64,000 nt of DNA. It comes from Lyngbya sp. CCAP 1446/10. GTDB lineage: Bacteria > Cyanobacteriota > Cyanobacteriia > Cyanobacteriales > Microcoleaceae. Shown piece after piece: positions 4,164 to 64,000 of this stretch (position 1 is the first letter of the stretch; each line of letters starts with the position of its first letter). Where the stretch lies: assembly GCF_026130175.1 (NCBI RefSeq), contig NZ_JAIGNI010000028.1, forward strand, positions 1 through 64,000, read 5' to 3'. Below the pieces are notes generated by a model. It was not told where the DNA came from. It searched no databases and saw only the letters and a list, made by a program, of their open reading frames with translations. Both the position numbers and the translations under genes were made by a program.

Positions 4164-5822
4164 TCAAGACTTACTAACATCCTCAAAAGACTCAGATCCC
4201 AAAGGACTCGGAATCCAACCTTGAATATTCTTGCGTTTCCCTAAAAGTGGCTGCGAATGTACGATCGGCAAACGCACAGCTTCCCCATGCAAAATCTCGC
4301 TAACTTCTGCATAAATTTTCGCCCTAGCTGCTTTATCCCCACTCGCCCTCCCCCGATCCAAAAGTTCCAAAACTTTGGGATTTTTCCAATTTCCTAAATC
4401 CGCTGTGGAACCAGGCCCGAAGTGAGGATAATAAAAATTGTCTGGATCGCCATAATCTCCAGTCCAACCCATCATAAAAGCTTGAAATCCTGGAGGTTTT
4501 AGTCGATCGGCTAAATAAGCAGACCAATCCTTTGTTAGCAACTTTACCCGAATCCCGATCGCGCTCAAATCCGCCGCCAAAGCCTCAGCAATCGGCTTCG
4601 GCGTGGGAAAATAGGGACGGCTGACCGGCATATACCACAAATCCAAATCAAAACCGTTCGGATAACCGGCTTTCGCCAGGATTGCTTTAGCTTGCTGCGG
4701 GTTAAATTCGTAATCTTTAACTTTGTCAGACTGCGCCAAATTCACCGCCGGCGGAACAAATTGCGAGTCATATTTGCCAAGTTCTCCCCAGAAAGCCTTG
4801 ACGATGGCTTGTTTGTTGATTGTTTGGGCGATCGCCCGCCGCACCTCCGGTTTCGACAAAGGCGCGTAACTCGGATTTAACGCTAAATAACCCACATTAA
4901 AAGAAGGTCGCAAAACAGTTTCTAAATTAGCATCCGCCTGCACTTCTTTCAATTGATCCGGCGTTAAATCCACAGTAAAATCAAGTTGACCGGCCCGCAA
5001 TTGAGCCAGTCTCGCCGCCGGATCGTCAACAAAACGAAGTACCAACTGATTTACTTTCGGTGTTCCTGCTTTCCAATAATTGGGATTTTTTTCTAAAATA
5101 ATGCGATCGCCCGATCGCCATTCCTTAAACACAAAAGGCCCCGTACCCACCGCCAGCGACCCCGGAGTACCGTATTTAGCACCCGCTTTTTTCACCGCCA
5201 CCGGACTCGCAATCCCAAAATAACCCGACCCAATCGCTGAAGGAAAGGCAGCAAAAGGCCGATTTAACACAAACTTAATCGTAGACTTATCCACAACGGT
5301 AACATCCTTTACCAGGGAATCTTTATCGCCCTTAAATCCAGCAAAAAATTCTTTCCAAATTTGATAAGTTTTCCCCGAATCTCGATAACCTTGAGGATTT
5401 TTGGCATCCCACCAGCGATCGACATTAAACTTAACAGCATCCGCGTCAAAATCCGTGCCATCGTGAAACTTGACACCCGATCGCAATTTAAAAGTCCAAG
5501 TTTTGCCATCCGTCGAACTCGACCATTCAGTCGCCAGACTCGGTGCGAGTTCCACCGTTCCCGGTTTAAAATCAGTTAAGCGATTGTAGATTTGGTCGAT
5601 CGCAATCACCGAATTACCATCAGTAATATTTCCCGGTTCCAGATTCACAGGCGGCCCGCCCGCACCGTAAACTAAAGCGCCCGGTGGAACCGCGGCGGGA
5701 GTTGTCGAAGTTGCAGAATTATTGCTAACCGTGTTTGAATTAGTGCTGCAATTCGAGAGAATTACAGCCATCCCAAAAACTAGAGCTAATAAAACTAAAC
5801 GCCAAGATTTTAACAACCTCAT
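4164..5822 (-). CDS. ABC transporter substrate-binding lipoprotein, family 5 (peptide/nickel type)
   Basis: The 552-residue protein binds its ligand outside the inner membrane and delivers it to the DppB-type permease encoded just downstream. A lipoprotein signal ends at Cys25 (hydrophobic core LVLLALVFGMAVI, then LSNC). The mature part shows SBP_bac_5 signatures: LATEWSSSTDGKTWTFKLR near 95, GVKFHDGTDFDADAVKFNVD, and GTGPFVFKEW near 215. Family 5 proteins bind oligopeptides, dipeptides, nickel or related molecules; the sequence alone does not tell which. The ATG is preceded by AGGAGC. Family assignment is firm and ligand unknown. Confidence 0.9.
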   Translation of the reverse strand: MRLLKSWRLVLLALVFGMAVILSNCSTNSNTVSNNSATSTTPAAVPPGALVYGAGGPPVNLEPGNITDGNSVIAIDQIYNRLTDFKPGTVELAPSLATEWSSSTDGKTWTFKLRSGVKFHDGTDFDADAVKFNVDRWWDAKNPQGYRDSGKTYQIWKEFFAGFKGDKDSLVKDVTVVDKSTIKFVLNRPFAAFPSAIGSGYFGIASPVAVKKAGAKYGTPGSLAVGTGPFVFKEWRSGDRIILEKNPNYWKAGTPKVNQLVLRFVDDPAARLAQLRAGQLDFTVDLTPDQLKEVQADANLETVLRPSFNVGYLALNPSYAPLSKPEVRRAIAQTINKQAIVKAFWGELGKYDSQFVPPAVNLAQSDKVKDYEFNPQQAKAILAKAGYPNGFDLDLWYMPVSRPYFPTPKPIAEALAADLSAIGIRVKLLTKDWSAYLADRLKPPGFQAFMMGWTGDYGDPDNFYYPHFGPGSTADLGNWKNPKVLELLDRGRASGDKAARAKIYAEVSEILHGEAVRLPIVHSQPLLGKRKNIQGWIPSPLGSESFEDVSKS

Positions 5823-6791: not shown

Positions 6792-7143
6792 TTTAAATCA
6801 ATTAATAATTAATTAGTCAGTTGACAGTTGTTAGTTGACAGTTGACGGTTGACAGTTGATAGTTGTAATTGGCAACTTGTAATTGGCAACTTGTAATTGG
6901 CAATTAGTCATTAGTTGGAAACAATTGGTCATTGATTATTATTGAAAAATTAGCCAAAACCATATCACTGACTGAACATTATGAACAACTCAAACAAAGC
7001 CAATGACAACTGACAACTGACAACTGTCAACTGTCAACTAACAACTGTCAACTGACAACTGTCAACTGACAACTGTCAACTGACAACTGTCAACTGACAA
7101 CTGTCAACTGTCAACTGACAACTGTCAACTGACAACTGATTTC
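6792..7143. repeat. Long heptamer repeat region (GTTGACA / TGACAACTGTCAAC)
   Basis: This spacer between pilC and the unknown gene is almost all short tandem repeat. It has GTTGACAG-like units at 6818-6866, three copies of TTGTAATTGGCAAC at 6862-6902, and a long run alternating TGACAACTG and TCAACTG at 7001-7138. The alternating run is self-complementary (GTTGACAGTTGTC-like), so its RNA could fold into many interchangeable hairpins. It ends just before the pilC stop codon. Confidence 0.85.
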
Positions 7144-9532: not shown

Positions 9533-9600
9533 CAGTTAGCAGTCAACCGTCAACTGTCAACCGTCAACTGTCAACTGTCAACTGTCAACTGTCAACTGCT
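9533..9600. repeat. Heptamer repeat GTCAACT between pilB and pilT
   Basis: About nine tandem units of CAACTGT/CAACCGT occupy the gap between pilB and pilT and end 3 bases before the pilB stop codon. The same heptamer family occurs at 6.1, 6.8-7.1, 13.5, 33.2, 39.6, 57.0 and 58.3 kb. Confidence 0.85.
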
Positions 9601-9603
9601 CAA

Positions 9604-16191: not shown

Positions 16192-17322
16192 ATGGCCGGT
16201 GATTACTATGAAATATTAGGCGTTTCTCGCAGTGCAGACAAAGAGGAAATTAAGCGTGCTTACCGTCGTCTAGCTCGCAAGTTCCATCCAGATGTCAACA
16301 AAGAACCAAGTGCCGAGGAGCGGTTTAAAGAAATTAACCGCGCTTACGAGGTACTCTCAGAACCAGAAACCCGCGCCCGTTTCGATCGTTTTGGCGAAGC
16401 AGGCGTGAGCGGTGCAGCAGCGCCGGGGTTCCAAGACTTCGGCGACAGCTTTGCCGATATTTTTGAAAGCTTCTTCCAGGGTTTTCAAGGAGGAGCGGGC
16501 GGCCAACAACAACAAGGTCGCAGACGCAGCGGCCCAGTGCGCGGAGACGATTTGCGGCTCGACTTGCGGCTGGAGTTTCGCGAAGCAGTGTTTGGTGGAG
16601 AAAAAGAACTTCGCATTAAGCACCTAGAAACCTGCGAAACTTGCAGCGGAACTGGTGCCAAGCCGGGAACTAGACCCCAAACTTGCTCGACTTGTACCGG
16701 CAGCGGCCAAGTCCGCCGTGCTACCCGCACTCCTTTCGGCAGCTTTACTCAAGTTTCAGTTTGCCCTACCTGTAACGGCACTGGGCAAGTGATTGAGGAC
16801 AAGTGCGAAACTTGTGGCGGCCGGGGCCAGAAAGAAGTGATGAAAAAGCTGAAAATCACTATTCCGGCTGGGGTTGACAATGGTACTCGTTTGCGGGTTT
16901 CCAATGAAGGGGATGCTGGCAAACTGGGCGGGCCGCCTGGTGATCTTTACGTGTTCTTGGCTGTGAATGAAGACCCGCTATTTAAGCGGGACGGCATTAA
17001 CGTTAATTCGGAAGTGAAGATTAGTTATTTGCAAGCAATTTTGGGCTGCCGGTTGGAAGTGGAAACGGTAGACGGGCCGACGGAATTGTTGATTCCTACG
17101 GGAACTCAGGCGAATACTGTTCTGACTCTGGAGAAAAAAGGTGTGCCTAAGTTGGGAAATCCTGTCAGTCGCGGCGACCATTTGATTGCGGTGTCTATTG
17201 ATATTCCGACTAAGGTGACGGCTGAGGAACGTGAGTTGCTGATGCAGCTTGCTAAGCTGAAGGGCGATCGTACTGGTAAAGGTGGCTTGGAAGGATTTCT
17301 GGGCAATTTGTTTCAGAAATAA
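16192..17322 (+). CDS. dnaJ: Co-chaperone DnaJ (Hsp40)
   Basis: DnaJ delivers substrates to DnaK and stimulates its ATPase. The 376-residue product is a full type I protein. The J domain (1-70) has the HPD motif in KFHPDVNK. A Gly/Phe/Gln-rich linker (about 75-115, with [10 protein letters not shown]) follows. Four zinc-binding repeats CxxCxGxG lie near 145-215 ([32 protein letters not shown]). The two-lobed C-terminal peptide-binding region ends in [13 protein letters not shown]. It is the last gene of the grpE-dnaK-dnaJ group and is followed at 8 bases by a terminator hairpin. All expected parts are intact. Confidence 0.96.
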
Positions 17323-17329
17323 GCAAATA

Positions 17330-17360
17330 TTTGACACTCAATGGGTGTCAAATTTTCCTG
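17330..17360 (+). terminator. Rho-independent terminator of dnaJ
   Basis: TTTGACAC (17330-17337) pairs with GTGTCAAA (17345-17352) around a 7-base loop and is followed by TTTTCCTGTTT. The position, 8 bases after the dnaJ stop, fits termination of the chaperone transcript. Confidence 0.7.
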
Positions 17361-17386
17361 TTTCATAATTCGCCAGCGTTTTATTT

Positions 17387-17880
17387 AATTCTCTCTCAAA
17401 AAAATGAGCGCAATTGCGCTCATTTTGCCAGTGAAGAATAATCATGGGGCAATTGGTGGGAGTAGTCCTCAAAAAAAATGAGACCAATTGGTCTCAAAAA
17501 TCGGCGGTAAAATAATTCGCTGACAATTGGTTTAATTCTCTCTCTAAATTTTGTGTCCAATTGGACACAATTTGTCCAAGAAGAATAATCATGGGGCAAT
17601 TGGTGGGAGTAGTCCTCAAAAAAATGAGACCAATTGGTCTCAAAAATCGGCGGTAAAATAATTCGCCGACAATTGGTTTAATTCTCTCTCAAAAAAATGA
17701 GCGCAATTGCGCTCATTTTGCCAGTGAAGAATAATCATGGGGCAATTGGTGGGAGTAGTCCTCAAAAAAATGAGACCAATTGGTCTCAAAAATCGGCGGT
17801 AGAATAATTCGCCGACAACTGGTTTAATTCTCTCTCAAAAAAATGAGCGCAATTGCGCTCATTTTGTACAGGTAGAATAA
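17387..17880. repeat. Tandem 146-bp repeat made of perfect palindromes
   Basis: Units begin at 17387, 17534, 17680 and 17826 (the last partial), a period of 146-147 bp. Each unit carries two perfect palindromes centred on CAATTG. P1 has arm AAAATGAGCGCAA (26 bp) at 17401-17426, 17694-17719 and 17840-17865. P2 has arm TGAGACCAA (18 bp) at 17479-17496, 17625-17642 and 17771-17788. In unit 2 the P1 place (17551-17570) is held by a different perfect palindrome with arm TTGTGTCCAA. The DNA between palindromes is nearly identical between units. No open frame runs through it. Confidence 0.9.
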
Positions 17881-17956
17881 TTACTCGGCAATGGGTTCAC
17901 GAAAAAATAAGGGTTTCAGGAATTGAGATGGGAAATTTGAGAATCAAAAACGCATT

Positions 17957-18247
17957 ATGAATTCAACATCCACAATTGAACATCCCAAATCCCCAGATGC
18001 CAAAATCGATCTGCGGGGGACTCCGTGTCCTTTGAATTTTGTCCGCACTAAACTGCGCTTGGAGCAAATGCCACCGGGTGCTGTTTTGGAGGTGTGGCTG
18101 GACGCTGGGGAGCCGATCGAACAAGTACCTGATAGTCTGAAAATGGAAGGCTACCAGATTCTCGAAACGCAATTTATTGCGGATGAGTCGGATTCCGGCT
18201 TTTTTGCGATGAAAGTGCAGCGCCCAGAACAAAAGGCAGCAGAATGA
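17957..18247 (+). CDS. TusA-family sulfur carrier-like protein
   Basis: The 96-residue product has the SirA/TusA/YeeD fold signature DLRGTPCPLNFVRTKLRLEQM near residues 18-38, with the key Cys in the PCP motif that carries persulfide sulfur in TusA proteins. Sulfur carriers of this type serve tRNA thiolation, molybdopterin or iron-sulfur pathways; which one applies here cannot be told. The N-terminal 15 residues are Ser/Thr/Pro-rich. Its stop codon overlaps the rsgA start (ATGA), so the two are translationally coupled. Confidence 0.85.
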   Translation: MNSTSTIEHPKSPDAKIDLRGTPCPLNFVRTKLRLEQMPPGAVLEVWLDAGEPIEQVPDSLKMEGYQILETQFIADESDSGFFAMKVQRPEQKAAE

Positions 18248-32877: not shown

Positions 32878-33230
32878 GTAAATTCTAGAAATATTAATAA
32901 TTTGCGATCGGTTTGTGAAGGAAGAAGGAAGAAGGAAGAAGGAAGAAGGAAGAAGGAAGAAGGAAGAAGGAAGAAGGAAGAAGGAATTAAGAATGTCCTA
33001 AGCTGTTGCACATTTAAATTGTATATTCGGGGCAGCGTCGAAGCCCACCCCACAGGAGTTTGACTATTTTTCGACATACGATTTAAATGCAAAACAGCTT
33101 AACCGAAAGCACAGGGGATTTAAACCCCCACTTTTAGGTGGATTGTTTTTAGGCACGGGCTTAAATCCCCTGCCTAAAAACTTCACTGTCAACTGTCAAC
33201 TGTCAACTGTCAACTGTTAAGCACACCATG
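32878..33230. repeat. Repeat-rich spacer with GGAAGAA array and overlapping hairpins
   Basis: Ten or so GAAGAAG units fill 32918-32986. Two hairpins overlap at 33112-33181: CAGGGGATTTAAACCC (33112-33127) with GGGCTTAAATCCCCTG (33157-33172), and GTTTTTAGGCA (33146-33156) with TGCCTAAAAAC (33171-33181). They share bases and cannot form together. GTCAACT heptamers at 33186-33217 follow, just after the fusion gene's stop. Confidence 0.75.
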
Positions 33231-46939: not shown

Positions 46940-48463
46940 ATGACACTTATATTTGCAAACAAACATAAGAATTTACCAAAGTCGATCGCAGTTGCTTTTT
47001 GTACGCTCTGTCTAGCATCATGTGGAAATAGACCTTCTGAGTTAGCCGGAGATCCGCAATCTGGAAACAATAGATCTTCGGTGTTAGTCTCTGAACCGCA
47101 ACCGAAAAAAAGAGGACGAACATTTACTGATTGGTGTCGCAAAAAAGGTTCTTTAAGTCCTGAAGTGAAACATACAGTTGAAGTGCTGTTGAAGACAGCA
47201 GGGACTACAGAGTGCGGTGTGGCAGATCGGAAACTTTCTATTCTCACGGATCTTTTCCTCGAAAACCATAAAATAAGTGACATCAAACCGCTAGAATCCT
47301 TAATTCACCTGACTCGGCTCTCCCTCGTTGGCAATCAAATCTATGACATTAAACCGCTAGAATCCTTGACTAAACTGAAGGAGCTCGTCCTCAGCAACAA
47401 TCAAATCAACGACATCAAACCGCTAGAATCTTTGACTAACCTGACTGTGATCGGTCTCAATAATAATCAAATCAGCGATATCAAACCCTTGCAATCTTTG
47501 ACTAACCTGAGCATTCTCAACCTCTGGAACAATCAAATCAGCGATATCAAACCCTTGCAATCTTTGACTAAACTGACTAGGCTAGAATTAACATTCAATA
47601 AAATCAACGACATCAAACCGCTAAAATCCTTGACTAAGCTGGCTAGTCTCAACCTCGGCGGCAATAAAATTAGCGACATCAAACCGCTAGAATCCTTAAC
47701 TAAGCTAGCTAGTATCAACCTCGGCGGCAATAAAATTAGCGACATCAAACCGCTAAAATCCTTGACTAAGCTAACTTGGCTCGTTCTCAACCAAAATCCA
47801 ATCAACGACATCAAACCGCTAGAATCTTTGACTAAGCTAGCTAGTCTCAACCTCGGCGGCAATCAAATTAGCGACATCAAACCGCTAAAATCCTTGACTA
47901 AGCTGACTTGGCTCTACCTCGGATTCAATCAAATTAGCGACATCAAACCACTAAAATCCTTGACTAACCTAACTGAGATATCCCTCAGCCAAAATCAAAT
48001 TAGTGACATCAAACCGCTAGAATCCTTGACTAACCTAACTGAGATATCCCTCAGCCAAAATCAAATCAGCGACATTAAACCATTGCAATCTTTGACTAAC
48101 CTGACTGTGCTCTACCTCAGCAACAATCAAATCAGCGATATCAAACCCTTGCAATTTTTGACTAAACTGATTGGACTCAACCTCGACAACAATCAAATCA
48201 GCGATATCAAACCCTTGCAATCTTTGACTAAACTGATTGGACTCGGCCTCGATAAAAATAAAATCAGTGACATTAAACCATTGCAATCTTTGACTAAACT
48301 GATTTCGCTCCGCCTCGATAAAAATAAAATCAGCGACATTAAACCATTGCAATCTTTGACTAAACTGATTTTGCTCGACCTCAGCGGAAATCCGATCGCC
48401 CCTAAAACCTGCCCTCTAAAGCCAGAGTCTATCTGTAAGTGGGAACCACCAACTCAACCATAA
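46940..48463 (+). CDS. Leucine-rich-repeat lipoprotein (internalin/SDS22-like)
   Basis: The 507-residue product has a lipoprotein signal ending at Cys28 (CTLCLASC), a short polar linker and an N-terminal helical cap with Cys residues (DWCRKKGSL, TTECGVAD). Then 17 motifs of DIKPL follow at 22-residue spacing in the pattern NQISDIKPLQSLTNLT-x-L-x-L. This is the SDS22/internalin type of curved repeat used for protein binding. A small Cys-capped end (PKTCPLKPESICKW) closes the domain. The 66-bp DNA units are nearly identical over 1.1 kb, which signals recent expansion or conversion. AGAGG precedes the ATG. The binding partner is unknown. Confidence 0.88.
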   Translation: MTLIFANKHKNLPKSIAVAFCTLCLASCGNRPSELAGDPQSGNNRSSVLVSEPQPKKRGRTFTDWCRKKGSLSPEVKHTVEVLLKTAGTTECGVADRKLSILTDLFLENHKISDIKPLESLIHLTRLSLVGNQIYDIKPLESLTKLKELVLSNNQINDIKPLESLTNLTVIGLNNNQISDIKPLQSLTNLSILNLWNNQISDIKPLQSLTKLTRLELTFNKINDIKPLKSLTKLASLNLGGNKISDIKPLESLTKLASINLGGNKISDIKPLKSLTKLTWLVLNQNPINDIKPLESLTKLASLNLGGNQISDIKPLKSLTKLTWLYLGFNQISDIKPLKSLTNLTEISLSQNQISDIKPLESLTNLTEISLSQNQISDIKPLQSLTNLTVLYLSNNQISDIKPLQFLTKLIGLNLDNNQISDIKPLQSLTKLIGLGLDKNKISDIKPLQSLTKLISLRLDKNKISDIKPLQSLTKLILLDLSGNPIAPKTCPLKPESICKWEPPTQP

Positions 48464-63870: not shown

Positions 63871-64000
63871 GTAGAAGGAAGAAGGAAGAAGGAAGAAGGA
63901 AGAAGAAGGAAGAAGGAAGAGGGAAGAAGGAAGAAGGAAGAAGGAAGAAGAAGGAAGAAGGAAGAGGGAAGAGGGAAGAAGGAAGAAGGAAGAAGGAAGA
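63871..64000. repeat. GGAAGAA/GGAAGAG array at window end
   Basis: Some 18 units of GAAGAAG and GGAAGAG run from 63871 to the end of the window, so the array may extend further. The same unit type occurs at 22016-22062, 32918-32986 and 59358-59399. Confidence 0.9.

Follow-up and report, generated by a model that had tools for sequence, protein, structure and literature searches.

Covariation of the two arms of a palindrome is usually taken as proof of a selected structure. Among cyanobacterial repeats, the SDR4, SDR5, and SDR6 sequences of Nostoc (Elhai et al. 2008) are said to be 21-27 nt long and to share a common hairpin despite differing sequence, with compensatory changes. The Rickettsia palindromic element is an in-frame insertion into ORFs, and parS, matS, and nucleoid-occlusion sites are examples of DNA sites read by proteins. 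Short-patch double illegitimate recombination in Acinetobacter reportedly overwrites short stretches via microhomology without length change, and it is not known to be palindrome-specific. REP and REPIN sequences are short dispersed palindromes that occur in clusters and have stems with paired changes (PMC3733652, PMC3116915). Template switching in inverted repeats has been documented for RNA genes (PMC8794818) and for yeast proteins, and the homogenisation of quasipalindromes is described as giving identical arms and hotspots of mutation, coding DNA included (PMC8604942).

The palindromes studied here were found in a 64,000-nucleotide stretch of the genome of Lyngbya sp. CCAP 1446/10 (the window; its genome is called the host below), where seven perfect palindromes of 18-26 bp recur with a 73-bp period in the spacer between dnaJ and a tusA-like gene (Table 1). 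They belong to a family with a consensus of roughly (A/T)5-TG-N3-[C/G]C, mirrored around a central AATT or CATG. At orthologous sites the place of the palindrome was kept and its word was exchanged; the vocabulary was closed, the spectrum of changes was abnormal, and tandem duplication was frequent. The family resembles REP/REPIN sequences in the features named above, but it has no GTAG/CGTC foot and no adjacent RAYT, and its 12 host copies lie at only four loci, some of them inside ORFs. By description the Nostoc SDRs, also short cyanobacterial hairpins, are the closest kind; it is by description too that they are set apart, as the copies in Microcoleus stay at orthologous sites and have the word exchanged in place. 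The Acinetobacter process would replace short segments and leave the length as it was, as is proposed below for the core of the family, whereas template-switch homogenisation fits neither the closed vocabulary nor the spectrum of the symmetric changes. Here both arms covary in intergenic as well as coding DNA, and the spectrum is at odds with compensatory selection and with corrected point mutation alike. The family is therefore well suited to tests of palindrome copying or reading. In the literature searched, six of the family's words occurred as strings in no paper, and no title or abstract was found that reported the palindrome family.

Table 1. Features of the palindrome array and its neighbours in the window.
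Feature	Positions	Strand	Basis or remark
ORF taken from its sequence to be dnaJ, upstream neighbour of the array	16192..17322	+	
Hairpin directly 3' of dnaJ, GACACTCAATGGGTGTC, imperfect in the host	17329..17353	+	terminator-like on both strands
Tandem array, seven palindrome-bearing 73-bp half-units of two alternating types	17384..17881	+	Tandem Repeats Finder and palindrome listing
Palindrome P1, word TGAGCGC-AATT, 26 bp perfect including A/T arms	17401..17426	no strand	
Palindrome P2, word TGAGACC-AATT, 18 bp perfect	17479..17496	no strand	
Palindrome P1-variant (unit 2), word TGTGTCC-AATT, 20 bp perfect	17551..17570	no strand	
Palindrome P2, word TGAGACC-AATT	17625..17642	no strand	
Palindrome P1, word TGAGCGC-AATT	17694..17719	no strand	
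Palindrome P2, word TGAGACC-AATT	17771..17788	no strand	
Palindrome P1, word TGAGCGC-AATT	17840..17865	no strand	
Replaced patch in unit 2, about 35 bp	17545..17579	no strand	direct unit-to-unit reading of the sequence
ORF of a TusA-family sulfurtransferase, downstream neighbour	17957..18247	+	Pfam PF01206, E 2.3e-17

Tandem Repeats Finder described the array as 3.4 copies of 146 bp with 89% matches. The sequence-only reading had taken it for a tandem 146-bp array of perfect palindromes; the array and its palindromes were real, but the basic period was 73 bp, with palindrome centres spaced 74, 73, 73, 73, 73, and 73 bp, and 146 bp was the super-period of two alternating half-units. All seven palindromes were centred on CAATTG as that reading had stated, but the motif occurred 12 times in the array, spaced alternately by 39 and 34-35 bp with a final gap of 73 bp, and only seven of these copies were centres of long palindromes. 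The paired and symmetric change of the arms in unit 2 was found again, as part of a longer patch in which the preceding A-tract and the following GCCAGTG/GTCCAAG also differed, the sequence outside being nearly identical. An assembly error in unit 2 is unlikely because at least one perfect 18-bp palindrome was present in 24 of the 25 dnaJ-tusA spacers of relatives (L013 to L038, with L033 left out because it stops short of the spacer), one of them from a complete chromosome (L020); the remaining spacer, L034, held a one-mismatch version only. In the 64-kb window, 10 palindromes with arms of at least 8 were counted, seven of them in the array, against a mean of 1.6 and a maximum of 5 in 50 third-order Markov simulations. 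TGTGTCCAATTGGACACA recurred at the dnaJ-tusA locus in other species, and the hairpin after dnaJ was present as the perfect TGACACCCATGGGTGTCA or a similar form in many relatives. One spacer of 1854 bp (L036) also contained an ORF of a putative TnpB-like transposase beside two palindromes.

Searching the host and its relatives for the arms, a check proposed in that reading, uncovered a dispersed family with four host loci and orthologous sites across the genus. A 654,722-bp sample of the host genome, not random because the four family loci were included, held 17 perfect palindromes with a length of 18 bp or more. Twelve were family members; the other five were about the number expected by chance (4.0, fourth-order Markov), and palindromes with arms of exactly 7 and 8 numbered 47 and 13 against 48.8 and 11.0 expected. 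The pattern search gave 15 host matches, consisting of the 12 perfect palindromes and 3 non-symmetric ones; because the pattern presupposed A/T at position 3 and G/C at position 4, its counts for other words are minimum values. Besides the seven members in the array, three lay between transaldolase and zwf, one in a tamB-like ORF, and one downstream of a nitrilase-like gene, these gene names being our assignments from sequence. Two of the 12 copies were inside ORFs (the third transaldolase-zwf copy and the tamB-like copy), and at three of the four loci copies stood downstream of genes. Tandem duplications at the family loci differed in length: 73 bp (dnaJ), 92-96 bp (tal), 106 bp (nitrilase), and 54 bp (tamB, in G001). 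The host also carried, after transaldolase, a duplication of about 299 bp that included the palindrome together with a decayed copy of the 3' end of the gene (L105:4253-4611). A second hairpin, TGTGTACG-TT-CGTACACA, lay about 74 bp after the nitrilase palindrome (L107, about 5315-5332) with one mismatch in the host; in G005, G006, G008, and G024 it stood at the tal locus in place of the family words.

Twenty-nine genomes of one genus, Microcoleus by inference, were compared, and the loci were retrieved at dnaJ in 29 (the contig of G021 ending before the spacer), at nitrilase in 29, at transaldolase in 27, and at tamB in 26 (27 loci, with a second contig in G009). Each genome contained 4 to 19 pattern matches; the reversed pattern matched 0 to 2 times. 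Sites were defined by a T-G start with a central AATT or CATG, or by an odd-length CCC-ATT/AAT-GGG centre, and 198 sites were collected at the four loci, of which 158 had a perfect seven-pair stem, 32 had one mismatch, and 8 had two. The perfect words were TGAGACC (69), TGACACC (33), TGAGCGC (27), TGTGTCC (10), TGTGCGC (7), and TGTCACC (1), together with 11 odd-length versions with a 3-base centre, such as GAGACCC-ATT-GGGTCTC. The distance from palindrome to gene was much the same across species while the word differed between them, and some genomes had no palindrome at a given locus. In the family as a whole, mixed palindromes with the arms of two family words were also present (TGAGACC/TGTCACC, TGACACC/TGTCACC, TGTGCGC/TGAGCGC, and TGACACC/TGGAACC), and the flanks were 93% A/T over five bases on each side in 170 sites. 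Symmetry was retained while the arms changed and random decay was absent from most relatives, in agreement with the earlier suggestion that something acts on the palindrome itself; some lineages had lost symmetry at tamB. Overall, the earlier interpretation was partly supported.

Changes were reconstructed by parsimony on a single tree of the 29 genomes from three gene fragments, and the sites of one genome are not fully independent in the counts. At the level of base pairs, the count over five sites was 59 double changes that were symmetric, 48 changes on one side only, and 6 double changes of other kinds. The 44 double changes in the stem comprised 32 flips (A:T/T:A or G:C/C:G), 10 changes of the A<->C type, and 2 transitions, whereas the 23 one-arm changes away from a pair comprised 16 transitions, 5 flips, and 2 of the A<->C type; the background in the three genes was 507 transitions (54%), 221 flips, and 216 changes of the A<->C type. 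When each perfect word was treated as one state, 31 replacements were inferred among eight word-plus-centre states. Nine of these concerned the centre only, 12 had a single stem-pair change, in every case a flip, and the 36 stem-pair changes in the whole set were 27 flips, 9 of the A<->C type, and no transition. Damage to one arm therefore looks like normal mutation, and symmetric change is the swap of one known word for another, for which ordinary point mutation does not account. The absence of transitions from the symmetric word-level changes argues against compensatory RNA evolution and against simple hairpin-templated correction. Among the six genus words (eight when the two centres are counted), most differences are A/T and G/C flips; as a result, 13 of the 15 word pairs lack any transition position, and their mispairing would involve no G-T wobble. 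Strict avoidance of wobble between any two words was rejected, two pairs being exceptions, and a strict rule of A/T versus G/C classes at positions 3-4 failed outside the genus (TGGAACC, TGGCACC).

The copies inside ORFs followed the same pattern. At tamB, the same codons encoded FLRPIGLK, FLTPIGVK, FLSPIGDK, or FLCPIGHK depending on the species, and FLKAANVNN in some species without the palindrome; the length of the site was unchanged across species apart from the duplication in G001 (L175), which was in frame, in tandem, and contained the palindrome. In the 24 of 27 tamB loci analysed, 89.0% of the stem cells were paired and the covariation score was 0.220, with at most 59.5% and 0.097 in slid controls, and none of 500 shuffles reached the observed paired cells, two-sided-change cells, or score. 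The number of tamB pairs with two-sided change, 4, was not above the shuffles (mean 3.8, reached in 389 of 500). The mean pairwise difference was 0.37 in the core and 0.17 in the flanks, the core showed no codon-position pattern, and 11 of the 24 cores were perfect; between L169 and L173, 4 of 96 flank bases and 7 of 18 core bases differed. The paired amino-acid changes (R/L, T/V, S/D, and C/H) can arise from DNA symmetry alone. The 289-residue ORF2 between transaldolase and zwf had no Pfam match above the cut-off, and its words were swapped without length change in 15 readable genomes (LSAIALK, LRPIGLK, LTPIGVK, and others). At the tamB palindrome of G026 (L176, C74:18347-19008), the contig folded back into a long inverted repeat, which may be a genuine inverted duplication or may have arisen in sequencing or assembly.

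Words were shared between unlinked loci of one genome in 27 of 60 genome-by-locus-pair comparisons at four unlinked loci; the expectation from shuffled labels was 14.1 over the whole set and 15.9 when shuffling stayed within clades (p 0.0003 in both cases). In the stricter paired-swap test, which set nearest relatives against each other, there were 14 own and 7 crossed cases (p 0.06), and 40 comparisons matched within the own genome only against 11 with the nearest relative only, these not being independent. Taken one by one, 4 of the 15 locus pairs fell below 0.05, and these included the linked tal pair. All 41 word pairs were the same in the tal array, and in the dnaJ array 33 were the same and 70 differed. 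G008 carried TGTGTCC in tamB only, with no second copy among all its 4 pattern matches. Strong genome-wide concerted evolution of the words was only moderately supported.

Across the order, 144 of 195 genomes gave at least one match to the pattern, most of them near the control level (0 to 4). A clear excess outside the genus was found mainly in the family f32, with 6 to 13 matches in G081, G117, G149, G163, G176, G189, and G201; three other f32 genomes (G059, G100, and G133) had 2 to 4, and a few genomes outside f32 had up to 6. In 20 stretches of f32 DNA, 11 of 22 palindromes lay in open frames of at least 160 codons. The palindrome-coded KFVRNCAQIIF of an f32 MnmG aligned without gaps over 198 residues to the solved MnmG chains 8zu0_A and 3cp2_A, the latter presumably from E. 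coli. One residue was missing next to the palindrome in an f32 cysteine desulfurase, and two palindromes lay within a 23-residue insertion in the adenylation domain of an f32 NRPS. Judged from these alignments, the MnmG and cysteine desulfurase cases suggest writing in place and the NRPS case suggests insertion or duplication. Assignment to the Rickettsia palindromic element was rejected, as the tamB, ORF2, and MnmG sites showed no length change; the NRPS domain is an exception to the in-place pattern. HIP1, the octamer GCGATCGC of very high frequency, was also rejected, the family having TG-N3-SC-AATT/CATG cores and 4 to 19 pattern matches per genome in the genus.

A REP-like mobile family was the nearest of the three options offered by the sequence-only reading, although an origin from RAYT/REP elements was rejected on the foot motif, the adjacent RAYT, and the high extragenic copy number of such elements. 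Of 340 strand-sites, 16 had GTAG within offsets 0-10 (13 at offset 6, none at 0-2) and 1 had CGTC. When a REP-associated transposase was sought, the host genome yielded 7 Y1_Tnp matches, and no family site had one of them within 5 kb; the closest (C62:32595), the only one inspected for flanking repeats, was 6.4 kb from the nitrilase site and was flanked by other repeats. Its locus (L304:1160-2190, about 32.6 kb on C62) has a Y1-transposase ORF of 170 aa with 91-bp repeats on one side and 83-bp repeats on the other, and looks like the REP/RAYT type. The repeat units carry AACCCGC-CTCC-GCGGGTT, a hairpin by reading, for which the repeat tool (minimum 14) listed no inverted pair.

We tentatively favour, at somewhat below an even chance, a REP/SDR-like family whose core of about 18 bp is rewritten in place as a unit, copied from another member. 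The copying would occur in a short-patch event, with hairpin or cruciform formation exposing the palindrome or leading to its cutting and the A/T-tract, TG, and CAATTG serving as microhomology. Instability of the palindrome could also seed the tandem duplications at dnaJ, tal, nitrilase, and tamB, and different words in neighbouring half-units after duplication would give the 146-bp super-period; no host function would be needed. Several observations stand against copying. Homologous recombination normally uses much longer tracts than an exchange of about 18 bp with fixed ends, and the unit-2 patch, at about 35 bp, is longer than such an exchange. The NRPS insertion and the gap near the cysteine desulfurase palindrome also speak against in-place copying, as do the outcome of the paired-swap test, the small number of individual locus pairs below 0.05, the single TGTGTCC of G008, and the number of two-sided pairs at tamB. 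Copying gives no account of the preponderance of A/T and G/C flips among the word differences, a regularity for which none of the models considered accounts. The wider proposal, that a palindrome-specific process of rewriting in place spreads a closed set of roughly six to ten 18-bp words between loci, also through housekeeping ORFs and mostly with their length kept, or, with the same expected pattern, that a factor reads a discrete palindrome code, is possible but doubtful.

That the sites are functional DNA sites, bound by a putative dimeric protein or a few paralogues and with the word as a specificity switched under selection at all loci, seems unlikely to us. The small closed vocabulary, the sharing of words within a genome, the low copy number (15 host pattern matches, 12 palindromes), and the ORF positions mostly without indels would fit such sites, but the window's own array contains three words, odd-length forms occur, and several lineages have lost symmetry at tamB. 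The variable N3 is symmetric, which the spacer of a dimer site does not require, and the central loop varies in length; both fit a dimer site, an option of the earlier reading, less well. A smaller chance is given to template-switch correction, in which point mutations of one arm would be copied into the other by hairpin replication. This is an established mechanism (PMC8794818, PMC8604942) and would keep symmetry without function; the one-arm intermediates (mismatches in 40 of 198 sites) and the fold-back of the G026 contig, which may be technical, point the same way. Such correction should pass on the point-mutation spectrum, but transitions were 16 of 23 among one-arm changes and, among symmetric stem changes, 0 of 36 when counted by word and 2 of 44 when counted by pair, and it does not explain words common to unlinked loci. 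RNA hairpins, mainly bidirectional terminators or barriers at mRNA 3' ends kept by compensatory selection, are improbable too, and a plain hairpin series as proposed earlier is disfavoured. Six terminator-like matches were found at 17250-18000 against 0.5 (sd 0.7) in shuffles, the RNA folding z of the dnaJ-tusA spacer was -12.2 against 20 shuffles, and the position of copies downstream of genes would also suit them. Matches were obtained for the first hairpin (both strands) and three P2 copies (minus strand), the only places in the array with a T-run, and P1 gave none; the copies inside ORFs and the symmetric word-level changes, which have no path from A-U to G-C through G-U, argue against them as well. 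Rfam gave no match at gathering scores anywhere in the window.

Other repeats were also present in the window. Tandem repeats of 66 bp at 47257-48385 appear to code for a leucine-rich-repeat pattern. Many heptamer tandem repeats, which are typical of filamentous cyanobacteria, were observed as well, for example at 7004-7139, 9542-9603, 32917-32986, and 63873-64000.
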